From: a virus
DNA length: 64,000 nucleotides
Direction: 5' to 3' (one strand)
IMG/VR virus record: IMGVR_UViG_3300037502_002729
Span: 43,343-107,342 of that record
In this document: piece after piece, positions 6,358 through 61,806 of the stretch
Layout of the letters: every line of letters starts with the position of its first letter
Numbering within the stretch: the first letter of the stretch is position 1
The notes under the pieces: model-generated
The model's input: only the letters and a program-made list of their open reading frames with translations
What the model was told of the DNA's origin: nothing
Databases searched by the model: none
Made by a program: the position numbers and the translations under genes

Positions 6358-6369
6358 ATTAAAAATACA

Positions 6370-24544: not shown

Positions 24545-24546
24545 TA

Positions 24547-36027: not shown

Positions 36028-36030
36028 TAT

Positions 36031-42802: not shown

Positions 42803-43608
42803 TAAGATTGTGCAATTTCGTATTTTATTTCTCTATCTGTTGTGAAAAAATATTCTTTTTTTGCAGTTTGAAGCCAAAACTTAACCTCATCTTCAGTAAT
42901 ATTATTCTTATCAAACTTGTAATTCCAAAAAATTGACCCCTCCCTTAAATTTGTATGTTTGTATCCTAGTCTAGGTATGGTCATAATTTGTGCACCATTA
43001 TAAGTTAACCTCAATAAAAATTCATATCCAAATGTTAATTTTATTGAAGGTTTAAATCCACCCATCTCAATAAATATATCTTTTTTCAAAATAATTCCAG
43101 ATGTTTGGAAATTTTGATAATCATGCAAAATATCATTTGTCAAAACTCCCATTTCTTGGGTGAAGTTTGCAGCAAAAGTTGCTTCATTTGTAAACCCAGC
43201 AAAAACATCCTTGGAATCAACATCAACAACAACTGGAAGAAAAGCATTATATTCTGGATATGCTTGGGCATATTTTTTGAAATTCTTAAACCATATATTT
43301 GAATACTCATCATCAAATTCAAAAAAACTAACCCAATTAGAACTAGCATTATTGACACCATAATTAATTTGTGCACAATAATTTGGTTCATTTTCCCAAA
43401 CTAATTTTTTAACATTTAATTCTTTAAAATCAAAATTATTTAAAAACTCAACAAGTGAATCTTCTTTTGTATGTACAATAACTAATTCATCAAAGTCATT
43501 TTGTTGTTTCTCTAGTGAGGTTATTGCCTTTTCAAAGAATAAATCAAAATCTTTGGCTCTTGATGATTTGATTGGTAATATTACAGATACTGATAATTTT
43601 TTGTCCAT
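42802..43608 (-). CDS. Family 2-type glycosyltransferase (GT-A fold)
   Basis: A 268-residue protein starting with the GT-A nucleotide-binding strand (SVSVILPIKSSRAKDFDLFF), followed by DELVIVHT and the metal-binding acidic motif FFEFDDEYS (the DxD equivalent). Residues 170-220 (GIILKKDIFIEMGGFKPSI, GYEFLLRLTYNGA) are the acceptor-side 'GGF...ED..l..R' module, with Glu in place of the ED pair. It has no membrane segment and probably acts in the cytoplasm on a soluble or virion acceptor. It is cotranscribed with PhoH and sigma, not with the main glycan operon. Confidence 0.8.
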   Translation of the reverse strand: MDKKLSVSVILPIKSSRAKDFDLFFEKAITSLEKQQNDFDELVIVHTKEDSLVEFLNNFDFKELNVKKLVWENEPNYCAQINYGVNNASSNWVSFFEFDDEYSNIWFKNFKKYAQAYPEYNAFLPVVVDVDSKDVFAGFTNEATFAANFTQEMGVLTNDILHDYQNFQTSGIILKKDIFIEMGGFKPSIKLTFGYEFLLRLTYNGAQIMTIPRLGYKHTNLREGSIFWNYKFDKNNITEDEVKFWLQTAKKEYFFTTDREIKYEIAQS

Positions 43609-43609
43609 T

Positions 43610-44656
43610 TTATATTTTGTTTAATTGTTCTTCAAATGCATTTATTCTATTTTCAAAATAGCCACTAAAACAATCAATGATTGTTGATTTGAATTTATCT
43701 TTGTCCTGGTATTCTTTTGATGTGTTTTCAATCTCATCATATAATTCAGGTGTAATACTATCTTCAAGCCAGTTTTGAATAAATTCAGCAATATAATCAA
43801 CCATTTTTAACTTGTCTTGAATCCATATGCCATTCTTATCATTCATCCATTCTGGAATTAAATCAGGGATTTTGCCAATTACAGGAATTCCACAAGACAT
43901 TGATTCTAATGGGAATGTTCCAAATCCACTAATATCATCAATCCAAACACTTAAAAAACAATTCTTTAAAGAATTGGCAAATTCAGTATGGGATAATCCT
44001 CTCATATCCCTAAATGTAAACCACCTAAATTGGGGATATTTTAAATAAAATTCTTTTACAATATTAATTGTATCACTTTGTTCTCTTGTATGCATTGCAA
44101 TAATTGGCATTGGTGGCAGTTTTGGTTTTGTGAAAATGTCAGAAATAATTGGTTTGATTATATCAAATGATATTTTTTTCATATATGAATCAATCCTTTC
44201 TTTTTGTTTTTCACTTGTTGTAATACATTTAAGAAATCCAAATGATGTCCATGCTTGTCCTGGTTGAAGTGTGTCTAATACATATGAATATGATTGAGCC
44301 AAAACAATTCTACCACAAGGTAAATCTTTAATTTGTTCCATTATAAATCCATATATTTCTGGAAGAACAATAAAATCTTCAGGGCTTATCTCTAGGCTTT
44401 CCCCCTCAATGGACCGGTGGGGCAATTTTGACATATACTCCTCACCAAGCCAAGAATCTACACCAGTATAATCTTTTTTCTCATGGAGAATAATTGGGTT
44501 AAACCCATTTTCTTTTAAAGTTAAAGCAACATCATAGATATATTTTATTGAAGCCCTTGCATTTCCTTTTGTGTCTTGGGCAACAAAATAAATCCTTGAT
44601 TTTTTATCCTTTAGAATATTTAAAGAATTTTCAATTTTTGATTTTAAGTCATTCAT
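43610..44656 (-). CDS. Glycosyltransferase, GT-B type (GT4-like)
   Basis: A 348-residue protein. The N-terminal Rossmann-like half starts IYFVAQDTKGNARASIKYIY with LKENGFNPIILHEKKDY. The C-terminal half has SVWIDDISGFGTFPLESMSC followed by GIPVIGKIPDLIPEW, the GT4/GT1 donor-binding 'E..a.G.PVi' motif. It pairs with the GT2-type enzyme one base downstream. The donor sugar cannot be predicted. Confidence 0.8.
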   Translation of the reverse strand: MNDLKSKIENSLNILKDKKSRIYFVAQDTKGNARASIKYIYDVALTLKENGFNPIILHEKKDYTGVDSWLGEEYMSKLPHRSIEGESLEISPEDFIVLPEIYGFIMEQIKDLPCGRIVLAQSYSYVLDTLQPGQAWTSFGFLKCITTSEKQKERIDSYMKKISFDIIKPIISDIFTKPKLPPMPIIAMHTREQSDTINIVKEFYLKYPQFRWFTFRDMRGLSHTEFANSLKNCFLSVWIDDISGFGTFPLESMSCGIPVIGKIPDLIPEWMNDKNGIWIQDKLKMVDYIAEFIQNWLEDSITPELYDEIENTSKEYQDKDKFKSTIIDCFSGYFENRINAFEEQLNKI

Positions 44657-44936: not shown

Positions 44937-45520
44937 ATTTCTAATATTTTTTCTTTTAATTCATTTATTTTTTTAATACTATGTTTTGACTTAATATTTT
45001 TGTTATATTCTTGCTCATATTTTATAACAATTTTATTGTTAGGCATTTCTAATAATAAGATAGGATTTGCTGTAAGTAAAACATCTATTGAATCAAGCAT
45101 ATTATTTTTTGTTTGTTCACTATAAAACATTATATTCTCAATCAAACAAGAAAACTTTGAAAGGAAAAATAATGTTGCAGGTTTGGATTTTCCAATTTCA
45201 TCTGAGACAATCACAATTTCATATTTATCTCTCATATCAATATAGAAATCATTCAAATCATTCATTCCAGTATATTCAATAGATGCTGCGTGACCAAATA
45301 TTTCCATAGGATGTTCAACATATAAAAAATTATATAAATCTTCACTAGTTTCAAACTTAAAATGATTCATAAGGTTTAAAGAATCAATTGGGTAAATTAT
45401 CTCATATTTAAACCCACCAACTTCATCTTCTTCATTTGATATATAGAATTTATCATAAACTTGCTCTATCTTTCCAAGAGTATCTCTTAAAACTCCATTC
45501 AAATCAATTGCTATCCTCAT
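44930..45520 (-). CDS. HAD-superfamily 5'-nucleotidase-like phosphatase
   Basis: The N-terminus MRIAIDLNGVLRDT is HAD motif I (DxNGVLRDT), with Asp6 as nucleophile and Asn8 in place of the second Asp. IVIVSDEIGKSKPATLFFLS holds motifs II/III (Ser and Lys), and LDSIDVLLTANP occupies the motif IV region, with weaker acidic residues. HAD phosphatases of this type act on nucleotides or sugar phosphates. The Asn8 replacement reduces confidence in normal phosphatase chemistry. It overlaps PhoH by 17 bases. Confidence 0.7.
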   Translation of the reverse strand: MRIAIDLNGVLRDTLGKIEQVYDKFYISNEEDEVGGFKYEIIYPIDSLNLMNHFKFETSEDLYNFLYVEHPMEIFGHAASIEYTGMNDLNDFYIDMRDKYEIVIVSDEIGKSKPATLFFLSKFSCLIENIMFYSEQTKNNMLDSIDVLLTANPILLLEMPNNKIVIKYEQEYNKNIKSKHSIKKINELKEKILEIC

Positions 45521-46235
45521 ATTTTTTTAATATTTTTGTTATAAGGGGATTTCTAACAATATCTTTAACATCAAATTCATGGTGAGCAATGTCCTCAACA
45601 TCTTGTAATCTTAGCATAGCATCATATAAACCTGTTCCCCTTTTGTCTTTATATCTGTCTGTTTGTTCCAAATCTCCAGATATAAAGAATTTAGTATTAA
45701 AACCAATTCTTGTCAATAGTAATTTCATTTGGTTTGGAGTTGTATTTTGTGCTTCTTCCAAAACCAATATGGTGTTATCAATATTTAAACCCCTCATATA
45801 AGCAAGAGCCATAACCTCAATAACCTCCATATCCATTAATTTCTCACGAATATTTTTGCCAATGATTTTATTTAAAAGATAAAAAGATGGATAAATATAT
45901 GGATCCATCTTCTCATTAACTGTCCCTGGCAAAGCACCTAGTTTTTCTTCTGCCTCAACAGCTGGTTTAACAATTACCAATTTGTCATATGTATTGTTTG
46001 GGTCTGCAAGTAAATCAATTGCTGCTTTCATTGACATATAACTCTTGCCTGTTCCAGCTGGGCCAACACAAATTGTTATTTGGTGATTTAATAATTTGTC
46101 ATAATAAATTGCTTGGTTGTCATTTAGGAATTTTTCTTTTGTTTTCTTTTTTAGCAAACTGCAAATTTGGCTTTTTCTTGATTGGGGAGCTAACTCAACC
46201 TCATCTTCTTTTTTCACAAATCTTCTTCTTGTCAT
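45504..46235 (-). CDS. phoH: PhoH-like ATPase
   Basis: A 243-residue RecA-like P-loop NTPase: Walker A GPAGTGKS after ITICV, then VIVKPAVEAEEKLGALPGTV (the PhoH hallmark 'PAVEAGE.LGFLPG'), Walker B-like ILVLEEAQNTTPNQMK (normally LDEAQN; Glu replaces Asp) and FISGDLEQTDR. PhoH proteins are widespread in phages and are linked to RNA metabolism and phosphate stress. It starts a long - strand unit that includes the HAD, glycosyltransferase, sigma and baseplate genes, and TATTTATT lies 19 nt upstream. Confidence 0.9.
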   Translation of the reverse strand: MTRRRFVKKEDEVELAPQSRKSQICSLLKKKTKEKFLNDNQAIYYDKLLNHQITICVGPAGTGKSYMSMKAAIDLLADPNNTYDKLVIVKPAVEAEEKLGALPGTVNEKMDPYIYPSFYLLNKIIGKNIREKLMDMEVIEVMALAYMRGLNIDNTILVLEEAQNTTPNQMKLLLTRIGFNTKFFISGDLEQTDRYKDKRGTGLYDAMLRLQDVEDIAHHEFDVKDIVRNPLITKILKKYEDSN

Positions 46236-46254
46236 TAAGTTGTTTTTATTTAAT

Positions 46255-46262
46255 AATAAATA
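46255..46262 (-). promoter_or_regulatory. TATTTATT late-promoter-like variant
   Basis: On the - strand it ends 19 nt before the PhoH start, in the 34-nt gap downstream of gmd. Confidence 0.35.
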
Positions 46263-46269
46263 ATGGAAA

Positions 46270-47265
46270 CTAAAATTTAACTATTAAATTTTGATTGTTA
46301 AATTTATGTAACCAATATTCAATCATCTCATCAAGCATTGTTTCAAATGTATATTTTGGCTTCCAATTTATTGTTTTCCTTAATTTTGTGGAATCACCTT
46401 TTAAATCATTTAATTCTTCTGGTCTATAAAATTTCTCATCTTGGACAACATAATCCAAGTAATTTAAATCCAAAGCACCAAAAACATATTCACATAATTC
46501 TCTAACTGAATGGGATACCCCTGTGGCACACACAAAGTCATCAGGATTGCTTAATTGCAATATTGACCACATAGCTTCAACATAATCTTTTGCGTGTCCC
46601 CAGTCTCTTGTAGCATCCAAATTCCCAAGTTTTAAGGTGTTACTTAAACCTAGTTTTATCTTAACTGCTTCTTTAACCACCTTGTTTGTAACAAAATTTG
46701 TTCCTCTTCTTGGGCTTTCATGATTAAATAGAATTCCATTTGATATGAACATTCCATAAGAATTCCTATAATTCCTTGCAATATTATATGCAAATACCTT
46801 TGAACATCCATAAGGGGACACTGGTATGAGGGGGGTTGTTTCCCTTTGATATCCATCAGCATCAATTGAGTTGCCAAACATTTCAGATGATGATGCCTGG
46901 TAAACTCTAATATTTTTATCAATCAATTTAACTGCTTCAAATACATTCAATGCACCAATACCTGTTGCATTTGCTGCATATAATGGTTGGTCAAATGATA
47001 TTCTTACATGAGATTGAGCTGCCAAATTATATATCTCATTTGGTCTAACTTCTTGTATAACTCTAATCAATGAAGATAAATCAGTCAAATCAGCATAATG
47101 CAATTTTAACTTATCATAAACATTATTTAATCTTGATGTCTGATTCTCAGCAACAGAATTTCTCTTTAATAATCCATAAACCTCATATCTTTTATCAAGT
47201 AGTAATTCAGATAGATAAGATCCATCTTGACCATTAATTCCAGTTATTAATGCTATTTTATTCAT
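46270..47265 (-). CDS. gmd: GDP-mannose 4,6-dehydratase
   Basis: A 331-residue extended short-chain dehydrogenase. TGINGQDGSYLSELLL (about 8-23) is the Gmd-specific NAD(P)-binding motif; LHYADLTDLSSL, NLAAQSHV, QASSSEMFG and YGCSK (the catalytic Tyr-x3-Lys) follow, then ESPRRGTNFVT, a Gmd tetramer segment, and RDWGHAKDYVEAMW. The reaction is GDP-D-mannose to GDP-4-keto-6-deoxy-D-mannose, the shared precursor of GDP-fucose, GDP-colitose and GDP-perosamine. The length is slightly below the bacterial norm (~345-370). It overlaps the next enzyme upstream by eight bases, and it is the last gene of the glycan operon. Confidence 0.93.
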   Translation of the reverse strand: MNKIALITGINGQDGSYLSELLLDKRYEVYGLLKRNSVAENQTSRLNNVYDKLKLHYADLTDLSSLIRVIQEVRPNEIYNLAAQSHVRISFDQPLYAANATGIGALNVFEAVKLIDKNIRVYQASSSEMFGNSIDADGYQRETTPLIPVSPYGCSKVFAYNIARNYRNSYGMFISNGILFNHESPRRGTNFVTNKVVKEAVKIKLGLSNTLKLGNLDATRDWGHAKDYVEAMWSILQLSNPDDFVCATGVSHSVRELCEYVFGALDLNYLDYVVQDEKFYRPEELNDLKGDSTKLRKTINWKPKYTFETMLDEMIEYWLHKFNNQNLIVKF

Positions 47266-48406
47266 TTATTAATGATGTTATATTTTCAATGTTTTTAAGT
47301 GTCAAATCTTGGTGATTTGGAACATAGAAACCATAGTTATCAACTATTTCACAATTTGGTAATGAACCTTTTCCATAAATTTTAGTCCACATAGGCTTTT
47401 TTGACATATCCCCAGCAATTAATGGTCTAATCTCAATATTGTTGTTTAGTAATCTATCAACAATTTTATTTCTATTTTCATCAATAATAGGATATGCAAA
47501 ATTTGAAATAAAATGTTCTTTTTTATCCAAAACATTAATCTTGTTATATTTAATTCTTTTTTTATACTCTTTGAAATTTATATTTCTTACTTGTGAATAT
47601 TTTTCAAGTTTATCAATAGCTTTTAAACCAATAAATGCTTGTAAATCTGTTGACCTAACATTAAACCCTGGTAAGTAGAATGTATATAATGAATCAAATT
47701 CATTTATGTTATTTTCATTCCTAAATTTATTTTGAATATGTTTTGGTAAATCTCTATCCCAGCCATGACTTCTCATCATTAGTAATGCATAATAAAAATC
47801 TTTATCATTTGTATTTATAAATCCACCCTCAATTGTACTCAAATGGTGTCCAAAATATGTTGAAAAAAATGATGCAAACCCAAAAGACCCAAGATATTGA
47901 TTATTATATTTTGAACCCATACTTTCACAAACATCCTCCAATAATATAACATCATATGTTTTGCACAAATTTATAATCTTTTCCATATCTGGAACTAAAC
48001 CCAAAGGTGAAACTAAAATAAATGCAGAAGGATTATGTTCAATAAATAAAGTTTCCAAATGTTGTAAATCACAGGATAAATCATATAAATTGCAATCACA
48101 TAAAATTGGTTGTAATCCCAATAAAATTGGGGAACTAACATCAGTTGCCCAACTTAACCCAGGAACAATTATCTTATTGTTTTTTAGTGTATTTGTATGT
48201 TTTAATGCTGCTAAAGACAAAAGTATTGCAGATGAACCTGAATTAACATACACAGAATACTTTGTACCAATTTTATTAGCCCATTTACTTTCTAACTCCC
48301 AAGTTAATTCACCTTTTGTTAATTTAGGTATTTCACCTTGAGTTAACCATTCTACTAAAGATTTTATATCATCTTTATCAATTGTATCACTTACTAATTT
48401 TATCAT
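47258..48406 (-). CDS. colD: PLP-dependent sugar 3-dehydratase, ColD-like (DegT family)
   Basis: A 382-residue DegT/StrS-fold enzyme: VNSGSSAILLSLAAL (phosphate binding), IIVPGLSWATDV, ILLEDVCESMGSKY and FFSTYFGHHLSTIEGG. At the last site, normal family aminotransferases have the PLP-bound Lys; here a His pair (about 187-188) replaces it. That exchange is the hallmark of ColD (GDP-4-keto-6-deoxy-D-mannose 3-dehydratase) and of the iron-sulfur E1/RfbH dehydratase. Other ColD-like phrases are MRSHGWDRDLP, PGFNVRSTDLQAFIGL and IEIRPLIAGD. With Gmd next to it, the GDP-sugar ColD reaction (loss of the C3 hydroxyl, giving a 3,6-dideoxy sugar) is the better fit. It overlaps both neighbours. Confidence 0.85.
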   Translation of the reverse strand: MIKLVSDTIDKDDIKSLVEWLTQGEIPKLTKGELTWELESKWANKIGTKYSVYVNSGSSAILLSLAALKHTNTLKNNKIIVPGLSWATDVSSPILLGLQPILCDCNLYDLSCDLQHLETLFIEHNPSAFILVSPLGLVPDMEKIINLCKTYDVILLEDVCESMGSKYNNQYLGSFGFASFFSTYFGHHLSTIEGGFINTNDKDFYYALLMMRSHGWDRDLPKHIQNKFRNENNINEFDSLYTFYLPGFNVRSTDLQAFIGLKAIDKLEKYSQVRNINFKEYKKRIKYNKINVLDKKEHFISNFAYPIIDENRNKIVDRLLNNNIEIRPLIAGDMSKKPMWTKIYGKGSLPNCEIVDNYGFYVPNHQDLTLKNIENITSLINE

Positions 48407-49304
48407 AATATGAGTTGTAAATTAATTTTATTCCTTCTTCCAAAGATGTAAATGTAAAATTAGGAAATATATTTTTAAACACCTTTGTTGAAACATCTTT
48501 TCTATATTGACCATTTGGTTTTGACTTGTCCCAAATTATTTTCATTTTTTCATTTTTTGTTGCTTTTAATGCTAATTTAGACATTTCTAATATTGATATA
48601 TTTTCATTAGTTGCAACATTAAAACTACTAATGATATTTTTTTCAATTATTTCCTTAATTATTTTAGCAAAATCATTAGCATACATAAACTGACGTAATG
48701 GTGTGCCATCTCCAAAAAGTGTTATTTCATTTAAATTATTCTTATTAGCATAATATATTTTTTTAATTAAAGCTGTTAAAAAATGACTTTTATCCTCATT
48801 ATCTTTATCCCCAATTCCATATAAATTACAAGGAATTAAATACTGATAGTTTAAATTATATTGTTGGTTATAGGCATCAATTTGTGTAGCCATTAAACGT
48901 TTTGAATAAGCATATGTGAAGTTAGTTTTAGTTGGTGGTCCATTATGCAACATATATTCATCTAATGGATAAGTGTCAGACACATCTGGGTATATACAAG
49001 TACTCAAAATCCCAATAAATCTTTTAATATTAAATAACCTAGATTGCTCAATCACCAATGTGTTCATTAATGTATTTTCCCTCAAGTAATCAGCTGGGTA
49101 ATTTATATTATCTATAATACCCCCAACTCTTGCAGCTAAATGCACAACAATATTTGGGGTATGTGTTTTAAACATTTTAATAACATCAGTTTCTGATGTT
49201 AAATCAAAATCTTTTGATGATATATATATAGCATTGGGTAAAATCTTTTTAAGATAACTACCAACTAATCCTGAACCACCTGTTACTAATATTTTATCTT
49301 CCAT
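48387..49304 (-). CDS. colC/fcl: GDP-sugar epimerase/reductase, ColC/GDP-fucose synthase-like
   Basis: A 305-residue SDR with TGGSGLVGSYL at the N-terminus, VHLAARVGGI (typical of GMER/Fcl), STCIYP with the catalytic Ser/Cys, and YAYSKR with the Tyr-x3-Lys pair. LNYQYLIPCNLYGIGD, FGDGTPLRQFMYANDFA and NGQYRKDVST follow in the same order as GDP-L-fucose synthase and ColC. These enzymes epimerise C5 (and C3 for fucose) and reduce C4. Next to a ColD-type enzyme, the expected product is GDP-L-colitose; GDP-L-fucose remains possible if ColD acts on a side branch. It overlaps colD by 20 bases. Confidence 0.88.
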   Translation of the reverse strand: MEDKILVTGGSGLVGSYLKKILPNAIYISSKDFDLTSETDVIKMFKTHTPNIVVHLAARVGGIIDNINYPADYLRENTLMNTLVIEQSRLFNIKRFIGILSTCIYPDVSDTYPLDEYMLHNGPPTKTNFTYAYSKRLMATQIDAYNQQYNLNYQYLIPCNLYGIGDKDNEDKSHFLTALIKKIYYANKNNLNEITLFGDGTPLRQFMYANDFAKIIKEIIEKNIISSFNVATNENISILEMSKLALKATKNEKMKIIWDKSKPNGQYRKDVSTKVFKNIFPNFTFTSLEEGIKLIYNSYYDKISK

Positions 49305-49317
49305 ACTAAATTTTTAT

Positions 49318-50097
49318 TTATAATTTTATCCAGCCTTCACAATACAAATCATCTGTGATAAAACTAGAATTAGATAATCCAAACCAATTTTTTGGGGCAA
49401 TTACTTGTTTATTTGAATATTCATTTAACCAAGCACCCCACCAACTAAATGTTGAATTTGCAATTATATTATTCTTACACATTGACATTAAATATAAATC
49501 CTCATAGTCTAAATTGTTCTCAACAAAAATACAATTATCCAAAAAATTAAAATTAGATTTACACCAAGATATATCGTCTGAAATGATAAAATATAATACA
49601 TCTAACCCAATAATATTAATTGCTTTTTTATAAAAATCCATATTTTGAACTGGATGAACATTTTGTAATCCTACATAATCGCCTCTTCTAATGTGAATGG
49701 AGCATATATTCTCATTTTCTAAATTGGGGTATTTTTCATATAATTTATCTTTTACTGATTTAGTAGGGGATAGTAAATTTTTTATTTGTTTTTTATTTTT
49801 GTTAAAATATTTTTCTGACTGGAAATACCCATCTATTATTGTTGGCAACTTAAAATCAGGTATTTTGTGGTAGTGGAAATGTGGCTCATAATATATATTA
49901 TCATATGAAATATGATCATCTAATTTGATGTTTCTAAATATATTACCTAAATAAAATTCTAATGGTTTATGTACAACTTGAATATAATTTGGGTTTATAC
50001 CATAATTGACATTTAAATCTATTGATTTAGAGTATCCAGCAGCTACTTGAAACAAGTAATTGCCTAACCCTCCCTTTAATCTTGAGGATATTAACAT
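49318..50097 (-). CDS. GT11 family alpha-1,2-fucosyltransferase-like
   Basis: A 259-residue protein with the GT11 layout: N-terminal KGGLGNYLFQVAAGYSKS (motif 'GGLGNQmFQYA'), the donor-binding HIRRGDYVG in the middle, a KAINIIGLDVLYFIISDD strand-turn, and ANSTFSWWGAWLNEYSNKQV, the GT11 'NSSFSWWaAwL' motif. Family members transfer L-fucose (some accept L-colitose) from the GDP sugar in alpha-1,2 linkage. It lies directly behind the GDP-sugar genes and shares one base with the GT10 gene upstream. It is soluble and cytoplasmic. Confidence 0.88.
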   Translation of the reverse strand: MLISSRLKGGLGNYLFQVAAGYSKSIDLNVNYGINPNYIQVVHKPLEFYLGNIFRNIKLDDHISYDNIYYEPHFHYHKIPDFKLPTIIDGYFQSEKYFNKNKKQIKNLLSPTKSVKDKLYEKYPNLENENICSIHIRRGDYVGLQNVHPVQNMDFYKKAINIIGLDVLYFIISDDISWCKSNFNFLDNCIFVENNLDYEDLYLMSMCKNNIIANSTFSWWGAWLNEYSNKQVIAPKNWFGLSNSSFITDDLYCEGWIKL

Positions 50098-50909
50098 TAT
50101 TTATTTTCTTTTAATTTATTATATATAATATCATCAGGTAATATATATTTTTTTGATTCATTAAAATTATGTACTACTGATTCTAATTTTAGATTATATA
50201 AATCCTCATTTAAGTTAAAGATAATGTCTGACAAATCATCAATGTTGTTAAATGTTATAATCCCATTTAAATCAAAAAAATCACCTATAGATGGACATCC
50301 CCAATAAATAGGTATTGTGCCAGTTCTAAAACAATCAATTAATTTTTCAGTAAACCAATAATCTCTCTTACAGTTTTCAACAACTATATGAAATCTATAA
50401 TCTTTTAAACCATCTATTTTAAATGGTATAGGATTATACCCTCTACCGTAAACATTTATATCACTCCCATATTTTGATATAATATTATGTCTTAATATAT
50501 GCCCATCAGTTGATTTTTTACCTGAAGAGATAATACTTATATTCTTTTTTTTATTATAAATTTTTTGATCACTAAAATTAATCCAACAACAGCCAAATGG
50601 TACCATTTCAAAAGGTTCACCTATATCTAATAATTCTTTTTCATGTGTAAAAACTTTTTTAAAATTTTTAATATTATTTATGACATAATCATAACTAAAG
50701 TTATTAATACACATTGGTTCTATTAGCCAAGCATAAGATTTTCCATTATTTATTGCTCTTGATAAAACTAAGTCTGTATATACAATAGTATCTTTATTAT
50801 AATCTATGTTTTCTCTATCCCAAACAAAATTTTCTGATTTTTGAAAATCAGAGCAATATCCTAAAACACTATGTGAAAAAGATGCATCTAATAATTTTAC
50901 ATTATCCAT
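50097..50909 (-). CDS. GT10 family alpha-1,3-fucosyltransferase-like
   Basis: A 270-residue protein. The C-terminal half has the GT10 signature: FHIVVENCKRDYWFTEKLID then CFRTGTIPIYWGCPSIGDFF, equal to 'F.i.fENs....Y.TEKl.dal..gtvPVywG.p'. The N-terminal half (YAWLIEPMCINN, ISSGKKSTDGHIL) is the acceptor domain, including the ISSGKK strand. GT10 enzymes transfer GDP-L-fucose in alpha-1,3/4 linkage. Length and motifs are intact. Having both GT10 and GT11 types next to a GDP-deoxyhexose pathway is unusual for a phage. Confidence 0.85.
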   Translation of the reverse strand: MDNVKLLDASFSHSVLGYCSDFQKSENFVWDRENIDYNKDTIVYTDLVLSRAINNGKSYAWLIEPMCINNFSYDYVINNIKNFKKVFTHEKELLDIGEPFEMVPFGCCWINFSDQKIYNKKKNISIISSGKKSTDGHILRHNIISKYGSDINVYGRGYNPIPFKIDGLKDYRFHIVVENCKRDYWFTEKLIDCFRTGTIPIYWGCPSIGDFFDLNGIITFNNIDDLSDIIFNLNEDLYNLKLESVVHNFNESKKYILPDDIIYNKLKENK

Positions 50910-50926
50910 AAATTATTTTATTAAAT

Positions 50927-51550
50927 TTAAAATTTAGTCCAGGCTTCCCAAACAAAGGGGTAATCAAATTTAATTTTAAAACCATTAGACATTAATTTAC
51001 TTCTAATCATATCTCTCCTTTCAATAGCCCTATCAACACCTAAATGATATTGTATTTGTATATTTTTAAAATTATTTATTAGATTATAATCTAACATATA
51101 CTCCATTAGTGAATATTCATCACCTTCAATGTTAATTTGTATTAAGTCAACAAAATTTATATTATTATCTAAAAGTATTTTATCAATAGGTATTGTATTG
51201 ATTTTAACTACTTCACCTACTTTAAAAGTAGTTGATGATGCATCATTAGATTTATATAAATCTTTCTCAACTTCTTTTGAATCTATTGACACTCCGCAAT
51301 TTAAAACTTTAATATTATTATTATTACTAAATTTACTAACTAAGTTATTGAAAAATTCAGGAACAGGTTCAACTAAAAATATTTTAGGTTTTAATGATTT
51401 TAGTTTTTTTAATAAAACTTCACACCATAAACCATTATATGCACCTAAATCTATTATAACTGAATTTTCATTAAATTCATAATCTATGATATGAGTGTTA
51501 TCCCCATTATCTAAGAACCATTTATTTATACTTATTTGATTATTTTCCAT
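50927..51550 (-). CDS. FkbM-family methyltransferase
   Basis: A 207-residue class I SAM-dependent methyltransferase of the FkbM type: NSVIIDLGAYNGLWCEVLLK (motif I), IFLVEPVPEFFNNL (motif II), IKVLNCGVSIDSKEV, SSTTFKVGEVVKINTIPIDK and FVDLIQINIEGDEYSLMEYM, the FkbM 'D.iKiDvEG.E..vl' motif with Asn-Ile-Glu. FkbM enzymes often O-methylate sugars in surface glycans. Its place between glycosyltransferases fits methyl capping of the glycan. Confidence 0.85.
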   Translation of the reverse strand: MENNQISINKWFLDNGDNTHIIDYEFNENSVIIDLGAYNGLWCEVLLKKLKSLKPKIFLVEPVPEFFNNLVSKFSNNNNIKVLNCGVSIDSKEVEKDLYKSNDASSTTFKVGEVVKINTIPIDKILLDNNINFVDLIQINIEGDEYSLMEYMLDYNLINNFKNIQIQYHLGVDRAIERRDMIRSKLMSNGFKIKFDYPFVWEAWTKF

Positions 51551-51564
51551 ATTATATTAATTTT

Positions 51565-52188
51565 TTATTTTATCAACCAATCATAATCAATAACTTTATT
51601 CTCAATATCACTATACCCATTAAGTTGTTTTGCTATGGCTTTAGATGTAGAATATACATTGTAACTTTTTTGTATTCCAGCATAAGTAACATCAATTGGA
51701 TTATTAAATTTTGACAACCTTTCTAAAATTACATCATACATATTCTGATTAATAGCAACAAAGTGAGTTGTGAATGTATTATGTAATTTTACAATTTTTT
51801 CATTTACTTTTTTAGGGGGCAAATCACCCATATGTGTATTATGATTACCTCCCAAATACAACATATCCCAATCATCTGGTAGAACATCAAAATATGAGTC
51901 TATATTTAACACTTCATTAGTAAAATAACAATCATCTTCAAGGATTAAAATATTTTTGTAATTACTATTCTTTGCCTCTTTAATAATTTCAATATTTGAT
52001 AAAATCAATCCAACACATCCATTAGGTATTCGATAAGTGTTAATTATATTACTACCATTAATTGCTTTGAAAAAAGATAAATTACCTAAATTATATTTGG
52101 CGCATTCAGATAAAATATGATTCTTTCTATCTTCTCTATGTTCTAAATTAATGCAATACACTTTATCAAACCTATCAAATAATTTCAT
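51565..52188 (-). CDS. GT25-type (LPS-like) glycosyltransferase
   Basis: A 207-residue protein starting MKLFDRFDKVYCINLEHRED, the GT25 N-terminal motif ('vyvINLdrR.dR'). ILILEDDCYFTNEVL supplies the EDD metal-binding motif and PDDWDMLYLGGNH the next family block. A longer open frame adds 45 residues that belong to the frame overlapping the upstream gene and lack homology, so the start is at 52188. GT25 enzymes add galactose or glucose to LOS or to collagen-like hydroxylysine. It overlaps the upstream gene by 14 bases. Confidence 0.82.
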   Translation of the reverse strand: MKLFDRFDKVYCINLEHREDRKNHILSECAKYNLGNLSFFKAINGSNIINTYRIPNGCVGLILSNIEIIKEAKNSNYKNILILEDDCYFTNEVLNIDSYFDVLPDDWDMLYLGGNHNTHMGDLPPKKVNEKIVKLHNTFTTHFVAINQNMYDVILERLSKFNNPIDVTYAGIQKSYNVYSTSKAIAKQLNGYSDIENKVIDYDWLIK

Positions 52189-53557
52189 TTTTAAAATTTT
52201 TAGTAATAATTTTATGGTACAATTCTTTAATATTTTTATTAGCTTCTGTTGAAATAGTTCCTGTACTTTCATGATGAAAATAAACAAACATTGGCTTTTG
52301 TATTCTCTTGCCAACATAACCATTTAACCCCATTCTAATCCAAAAATCATAATCTTCCCAACCCATTAATGTTTCATCAAAACCATTACAAATATCAAAA
52401 GCCTCTCTATGAAACATAGAACAATTTACAATAAACGGACCATTCTTTAATTGTTCCATAGACCATTCAGGTCTTTTCTCAATACCTTGCATTTCACCAA
52501 TATGTATTGTATCACAATAAACTGGGCTAATCTTTTTATTTTTATTTAAAATTTTAACACAAGTATCAATATATTCTGGAATAATCATATCATCAGCATC
52601 TAATGGTAATATATATTGACCTATTGAATTTTTTATACCATTATTTCTAGCATTTGATGGTCCTTGGTTTTCTTGATTTATAATTTTAATGTTTGGATGA
52701 TTTTTTATACTATCTAATTTTAAATTAACATAAAAATCAGTTGATCCATCATTTACTACTACCACTTCAATGTTTTTATAGGTTGAAGCAAAAATAGATT
52801 GTAGTGTTCTTTCAAATTGAATTCCATAATTATATATTGGAATTATTATAGAAACTATTGGTTGACTTTCATTTATAGTTAAAATAGGATATTTTGACTG
52901 TAATTTAATAGGTAGTTCTTTACCATATTTTTCAACAAATAATAATCTATTTTGATTCCACTTATCATTTGTCATACCAATTGAAAGGTGCGTTACCCTA
53001 ACATTTGAAATAGTGCCAATTTTAACTTTGGACAAAAAATTGCTAAAACAAAAAGATATGTCATAAAAATGAAACCCATCAAAATCCTCAATAAAATTAT
53101 TACTTATTCTATTTTTATGTACAGCAATACATAAACCATCAACAACAACTGACTCTATTATTTTTGAACCAAAAGGTTTATTATATTCAGATAACCATTT
53201 TTTACCCTCATTCTGATGAAATACTTGACCAACCATTTCTGATTGAACTTCCCACCACATTCCAGATGATGGCATATATGTTGTTCCAGCAACACCCAAT
53301 ATACCATAATCACTTTTTTCAAAGTGTTCAAATAATCTTTTTCCCCAACTTTTGGTTTCAAATATTAAATCATCATGACAAAGAACAACAATGTCATTCT
53401 TTGCCTGATTCAATATCTCATTATAAACTTTGGTTAAGGATTTCTCCCCATCATTAACAACCTCAATTATTTCTGCATCTTTAAACCCTACAGTTGTTTT
53501 TAAATGTTCAATAAATGTTGGGTTGCTTCTTCTTGTTGAAAATCCTATTGTTATCAT
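52175..53557 (-). CDS. Two-domain glycosyltransferase (GT2-type fusion)
   Basis: A 460-residue protein with two GT-A modules. The first (1-225) starts MITIGFSTRRSNPTFIEHLK and has VVLCHDDLIF and GLCIAVHKNRI, resembling the 'glycosyltransferase-like' domain often fused to GT2. The second (230-440) is a canonical GT2 domain: VSIIIPIYNYGIQFERTLQS, VVVVNDGSTD, GPSNARNNGI, LPLDADDMI (DxDD) and GWEDYDFWIRMGLNG. Both could be active, giving a bifunctional polymerase-like enzyme. It is coupled to the GT25 gene and two bases from dUTPase. Confidence 0.88.
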   Translation of the reverse strand: MITIGFSTRRSNPTFIEHLKTTVGFKDAEIIEVVNDGEKSLTKVYNEILNQAKNDIVVLCHDDLIFETKSWGKRLFEHFEKSDYGILGVAGTTYMPSSGMWWEVQSEMVGQVFHQNEGKKWLSEYNKPFGSKIIESVVVDGLCIAVHKNRISNNFIEDFDGFHFYDISFCFSNFLSKVKIGTISNVRVTHLSIGMTNDKWNQNRLLFVEKYGKELPIKLQSKYPILTINESQPIVSIIIPIYNYGIQFERTLQSIFASTYKNIEVVVVNDGSTDFYVNLKLDSIKNHPNIKIINQENQGPSNARNNGIKNSIGQYILPLDADDMIIPEYIDTCVKILNKNKKISPVYCDTIHIGEMQGIEKRPEWSMEQLKNGPFIVNCSMFHREAFDICNGFDETLMGWEDYDFWIRMGLNGYVGKRIQKPMFVYFHHESTGTISTEANKNIKELYHKIITKNFKNEII

Positions 53558-53558
53558 A

Positions 53559-54173
53559 TTAATTTAATCCAGTTGACCCAAAACCATTATCCCCCCTATC
53601 AGTTTGGGGTAATTCATCCAAATTTTCAAGATTGACATATTTGCCTTGTTGAACTGGACATAATACTGCTTGGGCAATCTTCATACCTTTTTTAACCTGG
53701 TAAGTTTCTCTTGATGTGTTAAAAAGAATAACCTTAACCTCTCCAACATATCCACCATCAATTGTGGATGGTGTGTTTAGTACTGTAAGCCCATAATTGA
53801 TTGCTAATCCACTTTTTGGTCTAATTTGTATCTCATATCCATCAGGGATGTTAAAAGCTAATCCTGTGCCAACCATAACCCTCGAAAGCCCACCCAATGC
53901 AACATCCTCAATTGAATATAAATCAAATCCAGAATCTTTTTCATAGTTGTATTTTGGATCAATAGCATTAGGGGATAATTTCTTATATCCAAGGGTTTTT
54001 GATTTCATTGCATCTTCAAGAACATTGGTATAATCATCCATTGACATCCCAAGCATACTTTGAATGAAGTCTTGCATTTCTTCATCACTTAATTCTTGTC
54101 CATCCTCAACACTATCAAGGTATTGCTTTAGGTTTTCAAGTTCTTCTTGATTATAATCTTCTCTAATTTCCAT
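53559..54173 (-). CDS. dut: dUTPase (trimeric type) with N-terminal extension
   Basis: All five dUTPase motifs are present: DSGFDLYS (1), RPKSGLA (2), STIDGGYVGEV (3, with catalytic Asp and Tyr), KIAQAVL (4) and RGDNGFGSTG (5, P-loop-like tail). The enzyme hydrolyses dUTP to dUMP and PPi, keeping uracil out of DNA and feeding thymidylate synthesis by the ThyX-like enzyme. An acidic extension of ~60 residues (QEELENLKQYLDSVEDGQEL) precedes the catalytic core, unlike the usual ~150-residue enzyme. It is embedded between glycan genes. Confidence 0.95.
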   Translation of the reverse strand: MEIREDYNQEELENLKQYLDSVEDGQELSDEEMQDFIQSMLGMSMDDYTNVLEDAMKSKTLGYKKLSPNAIDPKYNYEKDSGFDLYSIEDVALGGLSRVMVGTGLAFNIPDGYEIQIRPKSGLAINYGLTVLNTPSTIDGGYVGEVKVILFNTSRETYQVKKGMKIAQAVLCPVQQGKYVNLENLDELPQTDRGDNGFGSTGLN

Positions 54174-54174
54174 T

Positions 54175-54564
54175 TTATTTGTTTTTATTGTTTAAAATTT
54201 TAGTTGTACTAATATCATATTTTTTTTCAAAAAAATCAATTCTTTTTGCGTGTTCTAATCCAATTATATTTTTTGACTTGTATTCATCCCCAATAACAAT
54301 CACATCTGGTTGATATAGGTATAAGATGTCATTTAATTCAGTATCTGTATCAAACATACAAACATCATCAACAAATTTCAAAGATTTTAACATCTTAATC
54401 CTATTCTCAACAGAATTTATTGGTCTATCATTGCCTTTTAGTTGCTTAACCCTTTCATCAGAATCAACACCAACAAAAACATATCCAAGTGTTTTTGCAT
54501 ATTCCAATAATGATATGTGTCCAATATGCAACACATCAAAGCAACCATTTACCCAAATCCTCAT
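54175..54564 (-). CDS. Nucleotidyltransferase, TagD/HldE-C-terminal-like
   Basis: A 129-residue cytidylyl/adenylyltransferase-fold enzyme: NGCFDVLHIGHISLLEYAKT (HxGH motif), VFVGVDSDERVKQLKGNDRP and RIKMLKSLKFVDDVCMFDTD. The RPINSVENRIKML block resembles the heptose-1-phosphate adenylyltransferase half of HldE (RfaE2); glycerol-3-phosphate cytidylyltransferase is the main alternative. The ISTTKI end is the usual C-terminal motif. It would activate a sugar or polyol phosphate for the glycan pathway and overlaps the exonuclease gene by four bases. Confidence 0.8.
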   Translation of the reverse strand: MRIWVNGCFDVLHIGHISLLEYAKTLGYVFVGVDSDERVKQLKGNDRPINSVENRIKMLKSLKFVDDVCMFDTDTELNDILYLYQPDVIVIGDEYKSKNIIGLEHAKRIDFFEKKYDISTTKILNNKNK

Positions 54565-55262
54565 TTTAATTGAATGAGTTTTTTTATAACTTCAATCAAT
54601 ACCTCAACATCCCTTTCACAATATTTGGTAATTCCTTCAATGTTTCCATCATTCCAATATGCATCATGTACCTTATTACCAGTAACATCCATATTTTTTG
54701 AAGATTCAATACCAAGGCTAACACACATTAATTCTAAAGATGCTATTGACCCAAATTGACCATATTGCCAAATGTCTTTAGTGTCAATTGCTTTTATCTC
54801 CCAAGGTTTTGTATCATAACTTGGCAAAATTTTTGGAGGCATTAAACCATTTATCATCATTCTCTTTGCTAAGATAGGAATATCAAAACCCTTTACATTA
54901 TGCCCACAAAGGAAATAATTAAGTGACCCAACTTTTTGCAAAACCTTTTGGGTTTTTTGCAATATGTCCAATTCATCTGTGCCAGAGAATGATTGCATTT
55001 TAATTGTTCCATCATCATTAACAAATGCTAATGAAACACAAGCAATTTTTAAGAATTCACCAACAAGTGCAGATCTATTATGAAACATAGAATCAAATCC
55101 ATCAGCACCATCTTCTGGAAATCTTTTTTCAAACCAATCAAAATAATTCTCAAATTGGTATGCTAATTCTGGTCTATTTGTTTTTAGATTATCAAAATTA
55201 GCCTCACAACCAACTGTTTCAATATCTAAAAAAAGAATTTTGTTTAAAGGTACATTTATCAT
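54561..55262 (-). CDS. 3'-5' exonuclease, PolB-exo/DEDDy type
   Basis: A 233-residue DEDDy nuclease: ILFLDIETVG (Exo I: Asp, Glu), FLCGHNVKGFDIPILAKRM (Exo II: Asp) and YCERDVEVLIEVI (Exo III: Tyr-x3-Asp). The long segment between Exo I and II (WFEKRFPEDGADGFDS and the rest) is typical of the 'predicted 3'-5' exonuclease related to PolB' family common in Bacteroidota. It may act in replication proofreading or DNA repair. It is eight bases from the GT4-like gene, so DNA metabolism and glycan genes are transcribed together. Confidence 0.85.
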   Translation of the reverse strand: MINVPLNKILFLDIETVGCEANFDNLKTNRPELAYQFENYFDWFEKRFPEDGADGFDSMFHNRSALVGEFLKIACVSLAFVNDDGTIKMQSFSGTDELDILQKTQKVLQKVGSLNYFLCGHNVKGFDIPILAKRMMINGLMPPKILPSYDTKPWEIKAIDTKDIWQYGQFGSIASLELMCVSLGIESSKNMDVTGNKVHDAYWNDGNIEGITKYCERDVEVLIEVIKKLIQLK

Positions 55263-55269
55263 GTTATAG

Positions 55270-56490
55270 TTATTTAATTAAAGATTTATAAAATTCTGCT
55301 CTATTTTTGGTCACAGTAATTAAGGAATATTTATCCTTAACTGCTTCATACAAATTTTCACCCAAATCCTTAACCAAATTTGGATTCTTCATCAATTTCT
55401 CAATATATTTTGCCCAATCAACACCATTTCTATCTACATCAACTAATAAAGCATTCCCCCCATTTACAAATGTACCTTTATTCAAAGCATGTTTCAAGTC
55501 TATAGTGTATGGACCAAAATTTGATGCAATTAATGCTTTCTTATAAAATCCAGCCTCAATTACTTTTAATTGTGACTTCATTTCATTAAAAATATGATTC
55601 TTTATTGGTGCCAAAGATATATCAAATTTTGCATAGTTTTTAGCATAACTTGTAACAGGTTTTGTCCACACTCTTAAATAAGCCTCATCATTTTCTTTGT
55701 CATATGATTCTTGCACAAATTTAAGCAAAAATTTCTTATAATCATCACTTATAGTAGAATATTTTTGGGTAAATATTTCCTCATATCTTGCCCATACTGT
55801 TTCTTCTGGCTTTATATTTCTCTTTTTTTGTTCTCTTGTTTCTGGATTTATTTCTGTAACTGTACCCCTAGTATCAAATCCACATAAAACAAATTGTAAT
55901 TTGTTTGAATACTTTTTTAATGCTCCAAAAGATTTATCTAATAACATAAGGTCATGATGGTGTGAACTTCCTCCAAGCCAACCAACCCTAACTCTATTAG
56001 ATTCTAATGTTGGTTCATTAAATTGTGGATTTTTTGGGTCAATAGCATTTGGGAAAACAAAAACATTTTTATTATATTTTCTAATTAAATCTGCATATAT
56101 TTTTGTTGTTGTTGTAACATACCTTGATACCTTTAAATTTTCTATTATTTTTTCATTTATTTTATGTATTTTAATTATATCATGTATTGGATGTTCTTTT
56201 GTTGGCAACCAATAATCATCAATATCACAAATGGTTATAATTCCCATTTTGTTTAAATCTTGTATTAATTTATTTGCAACATCAAAATCATGTCCAATAC
56301 TTCTATGGAATGCTACAATTTGATATTCTTTCCAAAAATTTAAATCATTAATTGGTGGCTCATAATTTATATCAACATAAAAATCATTTGGATATTCATT
56401 TTGAAGGTAAATATGTGGATCAACTGATCTAAATAAGCCTACACCAGATTTGTCAGATGGTATGACTAAAACTTTTATTTTTTTGCTCAT
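55270..56490 (-). CDS. Glycosyltransferase, GT4-like (GT-B)
   Basis: A 406-residue GT-B enzyme: KIKVLVIPSDKSGVGLFRSV (N-terminal Rossmann strand and glycine turn), IITICDIDDYWLP, YVTTTTKIYADLI, VFVFPNAIDP, RVGWLGGSSHHHD (start of the C-terminal donor domain), FDISLAPIKNHIFNEMKSQL and KVIEAGFYKKALIASNFGPY (donor-binding Glu). It is the first gene of the glycan operon, directly after a terminator; its 97-nt upstream gap has AT-rich promoter-like sequence but no exact TATTTATA. Confidence 0.85.
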   Translation of the reverse strand: MSKKIKVLVIPSDKSGVGLFRSVDPHIYLQNEYPNDFYVDINYEPPINDLNFWKEYQIVAFHRSIGHDFDVANKLIQDLNKMGIITICDIDDYWLPTKEHPIHDIIKIHKINEKIIENLKVSRYVTTTTKIYADLIRKYNKNVFVFPNAIDPKNPQFNEPTLESNRVRVGWLGGSSHHHDLMLLDKSFGALKKYSNKLQFVLCGFDTRGTVTEINPETREQKKRNIKPEETVWARYEEIFTQKYSTISDDYKKFLLKFVQESYDKENDEAYLRVWTKPVTSYAKNYAKFDISLAPIKNHIFNEMKSQLKVIEAGFYKKALIASNFGPYTIDLKHALNKGTFVNGGNALLVDVDRNGVDWAKYIEKLMKNPNLVKDLGENLYEAVKDKYSLITVTKNRAEFYKSLIK

Positions 56491-59181: not shown

Positions 59182-61806
59182 ATGAGTTATCAAAATATTA
59201 ATCAATATAATTTTAAAAAAATTGGTTTTAGACCAGTAAATGAAGTTATTGATATAAGTTTGGTATCAGATGAATTAAATTTTGATGAAGAAACTATTTT
59301 TTCATCTAAATTAATTGCTGAAGATGATGGCAATAGAATGCCTTTTAATTTTGATTTTGCATATTCTGCAAATTCAATTTGTATTAGTTGTGGTGATTTT
59401 TCAAAAGATGTTATTCTTTCAAAAAATTATTATAATCCAGAAAAAGTTGATTTGTTAGTAAATCAAAGTACATCATCAATATGTGATGTTGGTTTAACAG
59501 GTATTGATAATGGTTTGACAAATGTTATAACAGGTCAAACAATTGAAATAAATTCAGGTTTATACACATTAAATACAGATAAATTTAGTAGATATAAATA
59601 TGATAAAAAATTAAAACTCCATCCAATAACTGGATTCACAACTACATCAAATAGAATTGTAAATGATAATAGTTACACTTATACAATAACATCAGCAACA
59701 ACAGAATCAATTGGAACATATGTTTCTTTAAATGGGGGTTTTTATCAAGGGTTTTATAAATTATTTGGTTATGATTATGAGATATTTCCAGAAAGGCCAA
59801 ATTTAGGTTGGACTGCTGAATTCTTATTAAAATATAGATGGACAGGTGATACAGCTGTTGGGTTGAATGCAAGGTATCCAGAAAATACCGGAATGTTCTT
59901 TTATCTTGGTGCAAGGGCTGAAAATAAGTTTTATCATTATGCAGATGGGGAATCCCCTTATTCAGGATATAGTAGGGTAACATCAGGTTTAACTTGTCTT
60001 GATACTTGTAGATGCAATGATACATATAGTGGTGCAACATTCTCAGCATCAAGTTGCAATAATGCATACCAAATAACAGGGATTACAAATACAACAGGGG
60101 ATATTATTTTCCCTGAAAAAAATGTATTTTATGATGATGTGTCAAATTCATTATCAATACAATTAAGTGGAAATAGTGGAAATCCAAAAATATGTGTAAA
60201 AACATATACAATAACAGGATCTTGTGAAACAACTGGTGCAACAATAAATAATTGGTGTTCAACAAAGGGTATTTTTGAGGATTTTAAAAATACAAATTAT
60301 GTACTAAAGGAAAATTGGGTTCAGATTGATGTTGTTTTTGTTAGAGACAGATTATTAGATAGTTGTGATTTAAAAGATTTAGGAGGATTAGGACTATTAG
60401 TTTCAAGTGAATACACAGCATCAACTAGTGGTAGAAGTGTTGAGTTAATACAACCCCCAACAACACAAAGTGGAAATACCCCAACAAGCATTGAAGTTGT
60501 TAACTTTGATAGCAGATGGTTTGAATCAAAGAAATATCGTGAGGGTAATTTAAGAATTTATATAAATGGTAAGCCATTCTTTATCATAGACAATTTTGAG
60601 GAAATAATTCCAAGACAATTAAATACAATAAAGGAAACCCAGGTTGGTGTTCCTTTTAACATTTCTTGGGGTGGTGGTACTCAAGGATTAAAAGATGCTT
60701 TAACATTTTCCTCTTGCACAAGTAATGACTTGATTCAGGATCCAGAATTATTACCAACAACTATATTAAATAATACAATATATTCAGGTTTAACAACTAA
60801 CATAATTCTTGAAAAATTATTTGGTGGAAATTTTATTGGTGATTTAAGTGCATTTAGAATGTACATTGAACCTTTGGATGCTGGGCAAATAAGGCACAAT
60901 TTTAGAATACTAAAAGATAAGTATGGTCTAATTGATCCATTTAATCCAGACAAAGAGCCAGTTATTGTTATAACACCATCAGTTTCTAACTCACCAACAC
61001 CAACGCCAACTATAACTCCAAGTGTAACCACATCAACTGTGTCAACACCAACTCAAACTCCAACACCAACAACAACCCCATCTATCACACCAACAATAAC
61101 CCCATCTATCACACCAACAATAACCCCATCTATCACACCAACAACAACCCTATCTATCACACCAACAATGACATTAACACCAACAATAACTCCAACACCA
61201 TCAAATATACCATATTATGCTTATGTATTTGCTGAACCTCAAACATTTGAAGATGGTGTTAATTTGGAAAATTATATGGTTATAGATAATGGTAAAGGTT
61301 GGGGTGGTTATCAGTTCTATGGCATTCCATCAACAAATGACTATTCATCAACATTAGATGTTTATGCACATTATTCTGGATGGACAAGTAACACAGGAAA
61401 CTATATAACACCTCCAATGTCTATTAAATCACCAATAAAACAAACATCAGCACCATCAACTGATACATTTGGTTGCCCACAAAATCAATATACTTTTGGT
61501 ACAGTAGAAATACTAAAAACTCAAGTTAATGAAAATATCAAATATTTCTATTCAATTTGGCTACCAATTGATGGATTAGGTGGAACATTCACAAATATGA
61601 CCATTGATGCTGGAACATCTGCTTGTTCAACTGATTATGTTAATGATGCTATTCCTGATTCAATTGCTATACAAAATGTAACAATAACATCAGGTGCAGC
61701 AATTCCAGCAGGAAATTATAGAGTGTTATGGTTGCAAAACTTAACACTACCAATAACTCAAACATTACTAACAAATATTTACATAAAAGGAGAAATTAAA
61801 ACTTAA
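59182..61806 (+). CDS. Large virion adhesin-like protein with ConA-like domain and Thr-Pro linker
   Basis: An 874-residue protein. The N-terminal ~600 residues are strand-rich with many Cys (SICISCGDFS, CLDTCRCNDTY, SCNNAYQ). Its later part looks like a concanavalin/laminin-G-type lectin fold: NWVQIDVVFVRDRLL, LRIYINGKPFFIIDNF, GNFIGDLSAFRMYIEPLDAG and HNFRILKDKYGL. A Thr/Pro/Ser linker follows (about 605-675) with units I-T-P-S-I-T-P-T. The C-terminal ~200 residues form another strand-rich domain (YYAYVFAEPQTFEDG, WGGYQFYG, NMTIDAGTSAC). It probably sits on the tail or baseplate and binds host glycans. The next fibre gene starts three bases downstream. Confidence 0.75.
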   Translation: MSYQNINQYNFKKIGFRPVNEVIDISLVSDELNFDEETIFSSKLIAEDDGNRMPFNFDFAYSANSICISCGDFSKDVILSKNYYNPEKVDLLVNQSTSSICDVGLTGIDNGLTNVITGQTIEINSGLYTLNTDKFSRYKYDKKLKLHPITGFTTTSNRIVNDNSYTYTITSATTESIGTYVSLNGGFYQGFYKLFGYDYEIFPERPNLGWTAEFLLKYRWTGDTAVGLNARYPENTGMFFYLGARAENKFYHYADGESPYSGYSRVTSGLTCLDTCRCNDTYSGATFSASSCNNAYQITGITNTTGDIIFPEKNVFYDDVSNSLSIQLSGNSGNPKICVKTYTITGSCETTGATINNWCSTKGIFEDFKNTNYVLKENWVQIDVVFVRDRLLDSCDLKDLGGLGLLVSSEYTASTSGRSVELIQPPTTQSGNTPTSIEVVNFDSRWFESKKYREGNLRIYINGKPFFIIDNFEEIIPRQLNTIKETQVGVPFNISWGGGTQGLKDALTFSSCTSNDLIQDPELLPTTILNNTIYSGLTTNIILEKLFGGNFIGDLSAFRMYIEPLDAGQIRHNFRILKDKYGLIDPFNPDKEPVIVITPSVSNSPTPTPTITPSVTTSTVSTPTQTPTPTTTPSITPTITPSITPTITPSITPTTTLSITPTMTLTPTITPTPSNIPYYAYVFAEPQTFEDGVNLENYMVIDNGKGWGGYQFYGIPSTNDYSSTLDVYAHYSGWTSNTGNYITPPMSIKSPIKQTSAPSTDTFGCPQNQYTFGTVEILKTQVNENIKYFYSIWLPIDGLGGTFTNMTIDAGTSACSTDYVNDAIPDSIAIQNVTITSGAAIPAGNYRVLWLQNLTLPITQTLLTNIYIKGEIKT
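60980..61205 (+). repeat. Thr-Pro-(Ile/Ser) repeat region
   Basis: DNA units of about 24 nt (ACCCCATCTATCACACCAAC and variants) are tandemly repeated, coding for TPSITPTI-type peptides. Units are nearly identical between about 61075 and 61150. Confidence 0.8.

Follow-up and report, generated by a model that had tools for sequence, protein, structure and literature searches.

A swappable glycan cassette with predicted colitose genes in a T4-like phage lineage

The stretch analyzed here (the window, 64,000 nucleotides) comprises bases 43343–107342 of the 107,342-base virus record IMGVR_UViG_3300037502_002729, a 107 kb fragment of a large, T4-like lake phage; all records compared with it are fragments as well, and coordinates are those of the window unless prefixed G000, L or G. 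Between the genes for a dUTPase and a PhoH-like protein lies an eight-gene functional unit (46270–53557) encoding GDP-mannose 4,6-dehydratase (GMD), a ColD-like protein, an FCL/ColC-like protein, GT11, GT10, FkbM, GT25 and a two-domain GT2. This block is very probably one allele of a swappable cassette locus, and the sugar donor it predicts is probably GDP-L-colitose (3-deoxyfucose) rather than GDP-fucose. The explanation as a whole, a swappable outer-glycan cassette with a colitose donor and a virion-protein acceptor in a T4-like, probably Bacteroidota-infecting lineage, we regard as evenly balanced between right and wrong.

Cassette exchange at gene borders

Close relatives were identified through an anchor gene that is not itself part of the glycan gene set. 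In L134–L136, the PhoH-like protein of the right flank (45504–46235, minus strand; PF02562, 4e-62) is 93–96% identical, and the cassettes differ: L134 carries a distant GT2, a protein without known function and UDP-galactopyranose mutase; L135 carries GT25, GT11, GT10 and GMD, with no ColD; and L136 carries a FabH-like, a DegT-like, two GMD-like and one FCL-like protein. The FabH-like protein of L136 (beta-ketoacyl-ACP synthase III, L136:3-941) scores above its curated cutoff and is an odd partner for sugar genes.

The exchange was mapped against the near relative G026, which is syntenic along the record (89 of 118 genes with a counterpart, median identity 93%). The longest run of genes lacking a G026 counterpart is exactly the eight genes at 46270–53557 (permutation p = 0.0008). 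Nucleotide homology in blastn stops at 46264, within the 34-base gap between the GMD and PhoH genes that forms the right cassette edge (46236–46269), and picks up at 53534, just within the GT2 gene; blastn against G027 and G029 yields a mosaic pattern across the cassette. Given these sharp edges and the mosaic pattern, the cassette is exchanged at gene borders. A second virus group (L022, L036–L043 and L045) carries a compact GT11–GT10–FCL–ColD–GMD block, with PhoH located elsewhere on the opposite strand; the colitose set has thus moved between phage lineages.

Predicted GDP-L-colitose donor

The genes for GMD, ColD and FCL/ColC (46270–49304) overlap each other, with scarcely any gap between them and the GT11 gene; like all other cassette genes, GT11 among them, they lie on the minus strand. 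GMD (46270–47265), the first cassette gene on the PhoH side, matches PF16363 (6e-116) and has a GDP-mannose 4,6-dehydratase as its best solved match (8.8e-100), with the NCBIfam gmd score slightly below cutoff (402.6 versus 415 bits). The DegT-family protein (47258–48406), a ColD-like GDP-4-keto-6-deoxymannose 3-dehydratase, finds its best solved match in Escherichia coli ColD (4.5e-57), perosamine synthase scoring about 100 bits lower (2e-25). As in ColD, a His (residues 187–188) occupies the position at which aminotransferases carry the Lys that binds pyridoxal phosphate; the HH pair is invariant in 22 phage ColD homologs, which form a single clade (support 98/87). The third protein (48387–49304), an epimerase/reductase of FCL/ColC type, has a match to GDP-L-fucose synthase (5.3e-58) in which the S-x-C, YxxxK and His positions align; it clearly belongs to the FCL superfamily, ColC and FCL taken together.

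The ColD match, the ColD-type His and the position between GMD and an FCL-type enzyme together argue for GDP-L-colitose as the donor. By established chemistry, GMD would convert host-derived GDP-mannose into GDP-4-keto-6-deoxymannose, ColD would turn this into the 3-deoxy sugar, and the FCL/ColC enzyme would complete GDP-L-colitose; L-colitose would then be moved to the oligosaccharide by GT11, and probably by GT10 as well. The genomic context likewise favors colitose over fucose as the GT10/GT11 donor, and GT11 is a probable colitosyltransferase. A characterized α-1,2-colitosyltransferase, WbgN, has GDP-colitose as its natural donor and accepts GDP-fucose too (PMC12723683).

The fucose alternative takes the donor to be GDP-L-fucose, the DegT protein to be a perosamine-type aminotransferase serving a second sugar, and the glycan to be fucosylated. 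FCL, GT10 and GT11 are all named as fucose enzymes, and some relatives (L136, L203–L205) encode FCL-like proteins without ColD; but the replacement of the cofactor-binding Lys by His, unchanged in 22 phages, and the roughly 100-bit lead of ColD over perosamine synthase render it improbable. Thus, where a preliminary description of this DNA had left "fucosylated or colitosylated" undecided, the GDP-6-deoxyhexose pathway it implied is retained, and ColD with its catalytic His favors the colitosylated product and disfavors the fucosylated one.

Glycosyltransferases and their pairing with the donor

Immediately beyond the donor genes, GT11 (49318–50097; PF01531, 1e-23) carries an HxRxGD motif, and its AlphaFold model (predicted local distance difference test score, pLDDT, of 94) finds its best PDB fold matches in the NodZ/FUT8/POFUT1 group (GT-B fold of the α-1,2/α-1,6/O-fucosyltransferases); phmmer against PDB returned noise only, leaving the fold search alone as informative. 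GT10 (50097–50909; PF00852 C-terminal domain, 2.6e-6) displays an EN...TEK motif and a GT-B fold (pLDDT 92) and matches GT10 fucosyltransferases in PDB, including the Helicobacter pylori α-1,3-fucosyltransferase. Motif residues of both enzymes are invariant or nearly so in alignments of 21 sequences each. The coexistence of both transferase types noted in the preliminary description therefore stands on Pfam matches, motifs and confident models with corresponding folds. The remaining cassette genes encode FkbM (50927–51550; PF05050, 1.8e-11; TIGR01444, 9.3e-17, above cutoff), probably for sugar O-methylation; GT25 (51565–52188, open frame to 52323; PF01755, 2.5e-10), whose start is most likely at 52188, since an in-frame Met lies there and a relative in L135 (80% identical, 207 residues) starts at this point; and the two-domain GT2 that ends the cassette (52175–53557; PF13712, Glyco_tranf_2_5, 2.6e-30, and PF00535, 2e-32).

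To place this allele among others, we assembled a census of 72 PhoH-bearing loci, again through the anchor outside the cassette; in 59 of them the sequence extends 4 kb or more upstream of PhoH, and these 59 come down to 49 once near-copies are removed. The donor gene recognized was GDP-mannose 3,5-epimerase in 30 of the 72 loci (for example L142:5006-6106, matching 2c59 at 2e-97), GMD without ColD in 16, ColD in 7 and none in 19, and the cassettes contain many sugar epimerases, DegT enzymes, FkbM and other methyltransferases. GT11 is present in 7/7 ColD loci versus 17/52 others (p = 0.001), and in 6/6 versus 13/43 after dereplication (p = 0.002). On quick trees, the donor label changes 7 times for GT11 and 8 times for GT10, compared with 13.2 and 16.5 after shuffling (0 of 200 shuffles as low); the window GT11 belongs to a clade linked to ColD, and most transferases linked to the epimerase cluster in clades of their own. 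Transferase subtype, for GT11 and GT10 alike, tracks the donor pathway.

A fixed GMD–ColD–ColC module with variable transferases was also considered and dropped, as the externally anchored census has ColD in just 7 of 72 loci; the impression had arisen because loci had been found with ColD or GT10 themselves. That ColD- or GT10-seeded sample adds NeuB, cytidylyltransferases, a carbamoyltransferase, asparagine-synthase-like proteins and UDP-galactopyranose mutase to the repertoire. One cassette (L024:10822-18572, with similar order in L030 and L032) combines NeuB, a CMP-sugar-synthetase-type cytidylyltransferase, a SIS domain protein and an MptE-like protein with weak similarity to sialyltransferases (0.05), possibly specifying a phage nonulosonic-acid glycan.

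Acceptor of the glycan

Searches for the lipid-carrier flippase Wzx (PF01943), the polymerase Wzy_C (PF04932) and the initiating transferase (PF02397) gave no match in the records searched, which may be fragments, whereas controls were positive. On this basis a lipid-linked export pathway is unlikely, and the earlier view of the set as "complete" is not supported; GDP-mannose is presumably supplied by the host. With no match to any of these three components, the glycan would most likely be put together in the cytoplasm, straight onto a structural protein of the phage, with remaining residues added by GT2, GT25 and the conserved flanking transferases, and FkbM methylating the oligosaccharide.

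Strong enrichment in Ser/Thr marks just two proteins of the record, which begin 2.7 kb past the flanking GT4 gene: a mucin-like Thr/Pro-repeat protein (59182–61806, plus strand; 57% Ser+Thr in a 60-residue stretch), with Thr/Pro repeats also in its orthologs in L023, L028 and L029, and a very long Gly/Ser/Thr-repeat protein with Gly-Thr-Ser-Gly repeats (61810–64000, plus strand; 62% Ser+Thr in a 60-residue stretch) that runs off the record end. We infer that they are the first candidate O-glycan acceptors. Virion modification is plausible, and we put a virion-protein acceptor at slightly short of an even chance; swapping cassettes would then alter the outer sugars of the particle, for a selective reason that we likewise infer.

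Alternatively, the cassette may remodel a host surface glycan (lipopolysaccharide, capsule or surface glycoprotein) during infection, drawing on host precursors and host export, for superinfection exclusion or to keep progeny off debris. This would fit the O-antigen-like gene content, host machinery would account for none being found here, and cyanophage clusters have been interpreted as cell-wall modification (PMC9602691). However, a T4-like, presumably lytic phage has little to gain from altering the surface late on, no membrane-anchored enzyme for initiation or acyl modification was found, and the presence of core transferases in 72 of 72 loci fits a constant phage-borne acceptor at least equally well. 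The host surface is possible as the acceptor, though we hold this explanation to be unlikely. The related proposal of host-glycan mimicry found no support: no host operon of this kind was identified, and bacterial ColD matches are at most 57% identical. Origin from a host operon was rejected as well, the closest bacterial-assembly matches (L049–L051, 55–57%) being few and perhaps phage contigs in bins; with the other bacterial-assembly matches at or below 48% identity, no host or donor is named.

DNA is a less likely acceptor still. A cassette that glycosylates the bases of phage DNA to protect them from restriction, its variable outer sugars serving to escape host nucleases, would recall the diverse glycans built on DNA by phage-encoded transferases (Pyle 2024, as cited in PMC12619734), and several DNA cytosine-methyltransferase-like genes occur in the record. 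Yet a thymidylate-synthase-type hydroxymethylase was found neither in the 107 kb record, itself a fragment, nor in G026, and the thymidylate-synthase-type proteins of some larger relatives, where read, look like ordinary ThyA with catalytic Cys and Asn, which leaves the DNA explanation improbable. A Tet_JBP search gave no match and was uninformative, its control being silent too. At G000:1195-6135 (L046) lies a tandem of three DNA cytosine methyltransferase-like proteins with two DNA-methyltransferase-like frames, 94–98% identical in G026.

Several considerations count against a colitose-bearing virion glycan. FCL-type enzymes are able to convert the GMD product straight to GDP-fucose; because of this route, and because WbgN uses both donors, a mixed donor pool is possible. 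The colitose product, like its putative linkages, is predicted from genes. GT10 has no association with ColD in the 59-locus census, and co-inherited whole cassettes may partly underlie the tree clustering. The missing export genes are weak evidence, since all records are fragments; G029 has no comparable repeat protein, and the closeness of the Ser/Thr-rich proteins to the cassette could be chance.

Conserved flanks and phage lineage

The left flank begins with the dUTPase (53559–54173; PF00692, 5.7e-25; 81% identical in L134) and continues, also on the minus strand, with a cytidylyltransferase-like nucleotidyltransferase (54175–54564; PF01467, CTP_transf_like, 7.7e-19; 94%), a 3'-5' exonuclease (54561–55262; PF10108, 1.4e-14; 97%) and a GT4 transferase (55270–56490; phrog_7162 in PHROGs, 8.5e-40, with a weak Pfam match of 0.005; 87%), identities again being to L134. 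The nucleotidyltransferase resembles HldE/RfaE domain II and stays under the equivalog cutoff (111.8 versus 181.5 bits). Beyond PhoH, two further minus-strand transferases are conserved in 72 of 72 census loci: GT1b, of group 1 (43610–44656; PF00534, 7e-6), and GT2b (42802–43608; PF00535, 7e-8). The preliminary description had drawn the gene set at 49318–56490; the cassette transferases do lie there, but GMD, ColD and FCL/ColC fall outside, and the dUTPase, nucleotidyltransferase, exonuclease and GT4 within that range belong to the conserved flank. The families it named (GT11, GT10, FkbM, GT25, double-domain GT2, nucleotidyltransferase and GT4) were all confirmed by Pfam, PHROGs or NCBIfam matches.

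Terminase, portal and major head protein of the record match T4-type families. Judged by terminase and capsid, Flavobacterium phage immuto and a Microcystis phage are among the closest cultured phages, with low identity, and a Bacteroidota host, as the preliminary description had suggested, is likely for the lineage.

Other features of the record include a phage-borne tmRNA gene (4492–4913, minus strand; ARAGORN tag GNTLETLATLGLVREDAVVAA; Rfam RF00023 match over its full length, 86.5 bits, 3.7e-32), situated in a six-gene run (819–6747) without G026 counterparts at 60% identity. A similar N-terminal stretch, perhaps a shared targeting signal, occurs on otherwise unlike proteins (G000:21806-22888, 26224-26973 and 33840-34424 (L047); L236:3228-3851), for example MKILVTEKQLAHIV, MAKTIRLTEHDLSIIIKRV, MKNTFRLTESDLVRLVKRV and MEFILTESQLLRIIKE. 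Short proteins with LPKGLKVGGDLDL-type repeats constitute a multi-copy family (G000:14392-17090; window 33650–36432 and 23419–25011), many of whose members cross-match in G026.

Relation to known systems

A more far-reaching and tentative reading, which we consider doubtful, is a "glycotype" system in an abundant lineage of large phages from lakes: constant core transferases would assemble a stem on mucin-like proteins of the virion, to be capped by cassettes that are exchanged as wholes. Each cassette would supply one GDP-L-sugar pathway (colitose, L-galactose or other 6-deoxyhexoses) with a matching GT10/GT11, so that the coat sugar would differ like a serotype. If true, phages would diversify through a modular locus by changing sugar chemistry, as bacteria do with O-antigens; the sugar would be predictable from sequence through donor/transferase pairing, diversifying selection on phage coat glycans would become testable, and phages would provide colitosyltransferases as well as GT10/GT11 enzymes matched to L-colitose and L-galactose.

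Parts of this inventory are already known from cyanophages, namely genes for GDP-fucose, for GDP-L-galactose and for GT11, the combination of GT11 with GT10, and proteins resembling ColD. S-SCSM1 encodes GMD, GDP-fucose synthase, GDP-mannose 3,5-epimerase and GT11 (PMC9602691); S-SRM01 and S-T4 combine GT10 with GT11, as the window does, and S-CAM7 and others encode ColD-like proteins. The cyanophage clusters (S-SCSM1, P-SSM2, S-CAM7, S-SRM01) differ in that homologs are 30–36% identical and no colitose reading was found in the literature searched. Searches on colitose with phage, colitosyltransferase and hypervariable phage glycan loci returned no description of this system in that literature, whose coverage was partial. 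What appears new is that predicted GDP-colitose genes stand next to GT11 in a locus where close relatives have swapped cassettes, and that transferase subtype follows the donor pathway.

Among other phages, moraphages resemble the lineage in being aquatic, with predicted Bacteroidota hosts and with PhoH and four putative glycosyltransferases in their core; but their core gene list includes lysine-tRNA ligase (PMC12619734), which occurs in 0 of 10 records tested here, and the moraphage assignment was dropped. Phage immuto is likewise T4-like, infects the phylum predicted here and encodes a glycan cluster with transferases, WecE-type aminotransferases, a methyltransferase and an epimerase, although with other genes, in another place, and annotated without GMD or FCL beside the aminotransferases. 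Mycobacteriophage virions, whose capsid and tail-tube proteins are glycosylated (Freeman 2023, as cited in PMC12619734), offer a precedent from unrelated phages for the acceptor that genes alone suggest here. The E. coli O55/O111 colitose genes and WbgN act on a lipid-linked O-antigen with flippase and polymerase, none of which was found in the phage; they share with it a ColD bearing the catalytic His, and include a colitosyltransferase that also accepts GDP-fucose. Bacterial O-antigen and capsule serotype loci differ in the same respect, the phage locus having yielded no Wzx, Wzy_C or initiating transferase, whereas the architecture is alike: constant flanks enclose a set of nucleotide-sugar and transferase genes that is swapped as a block.

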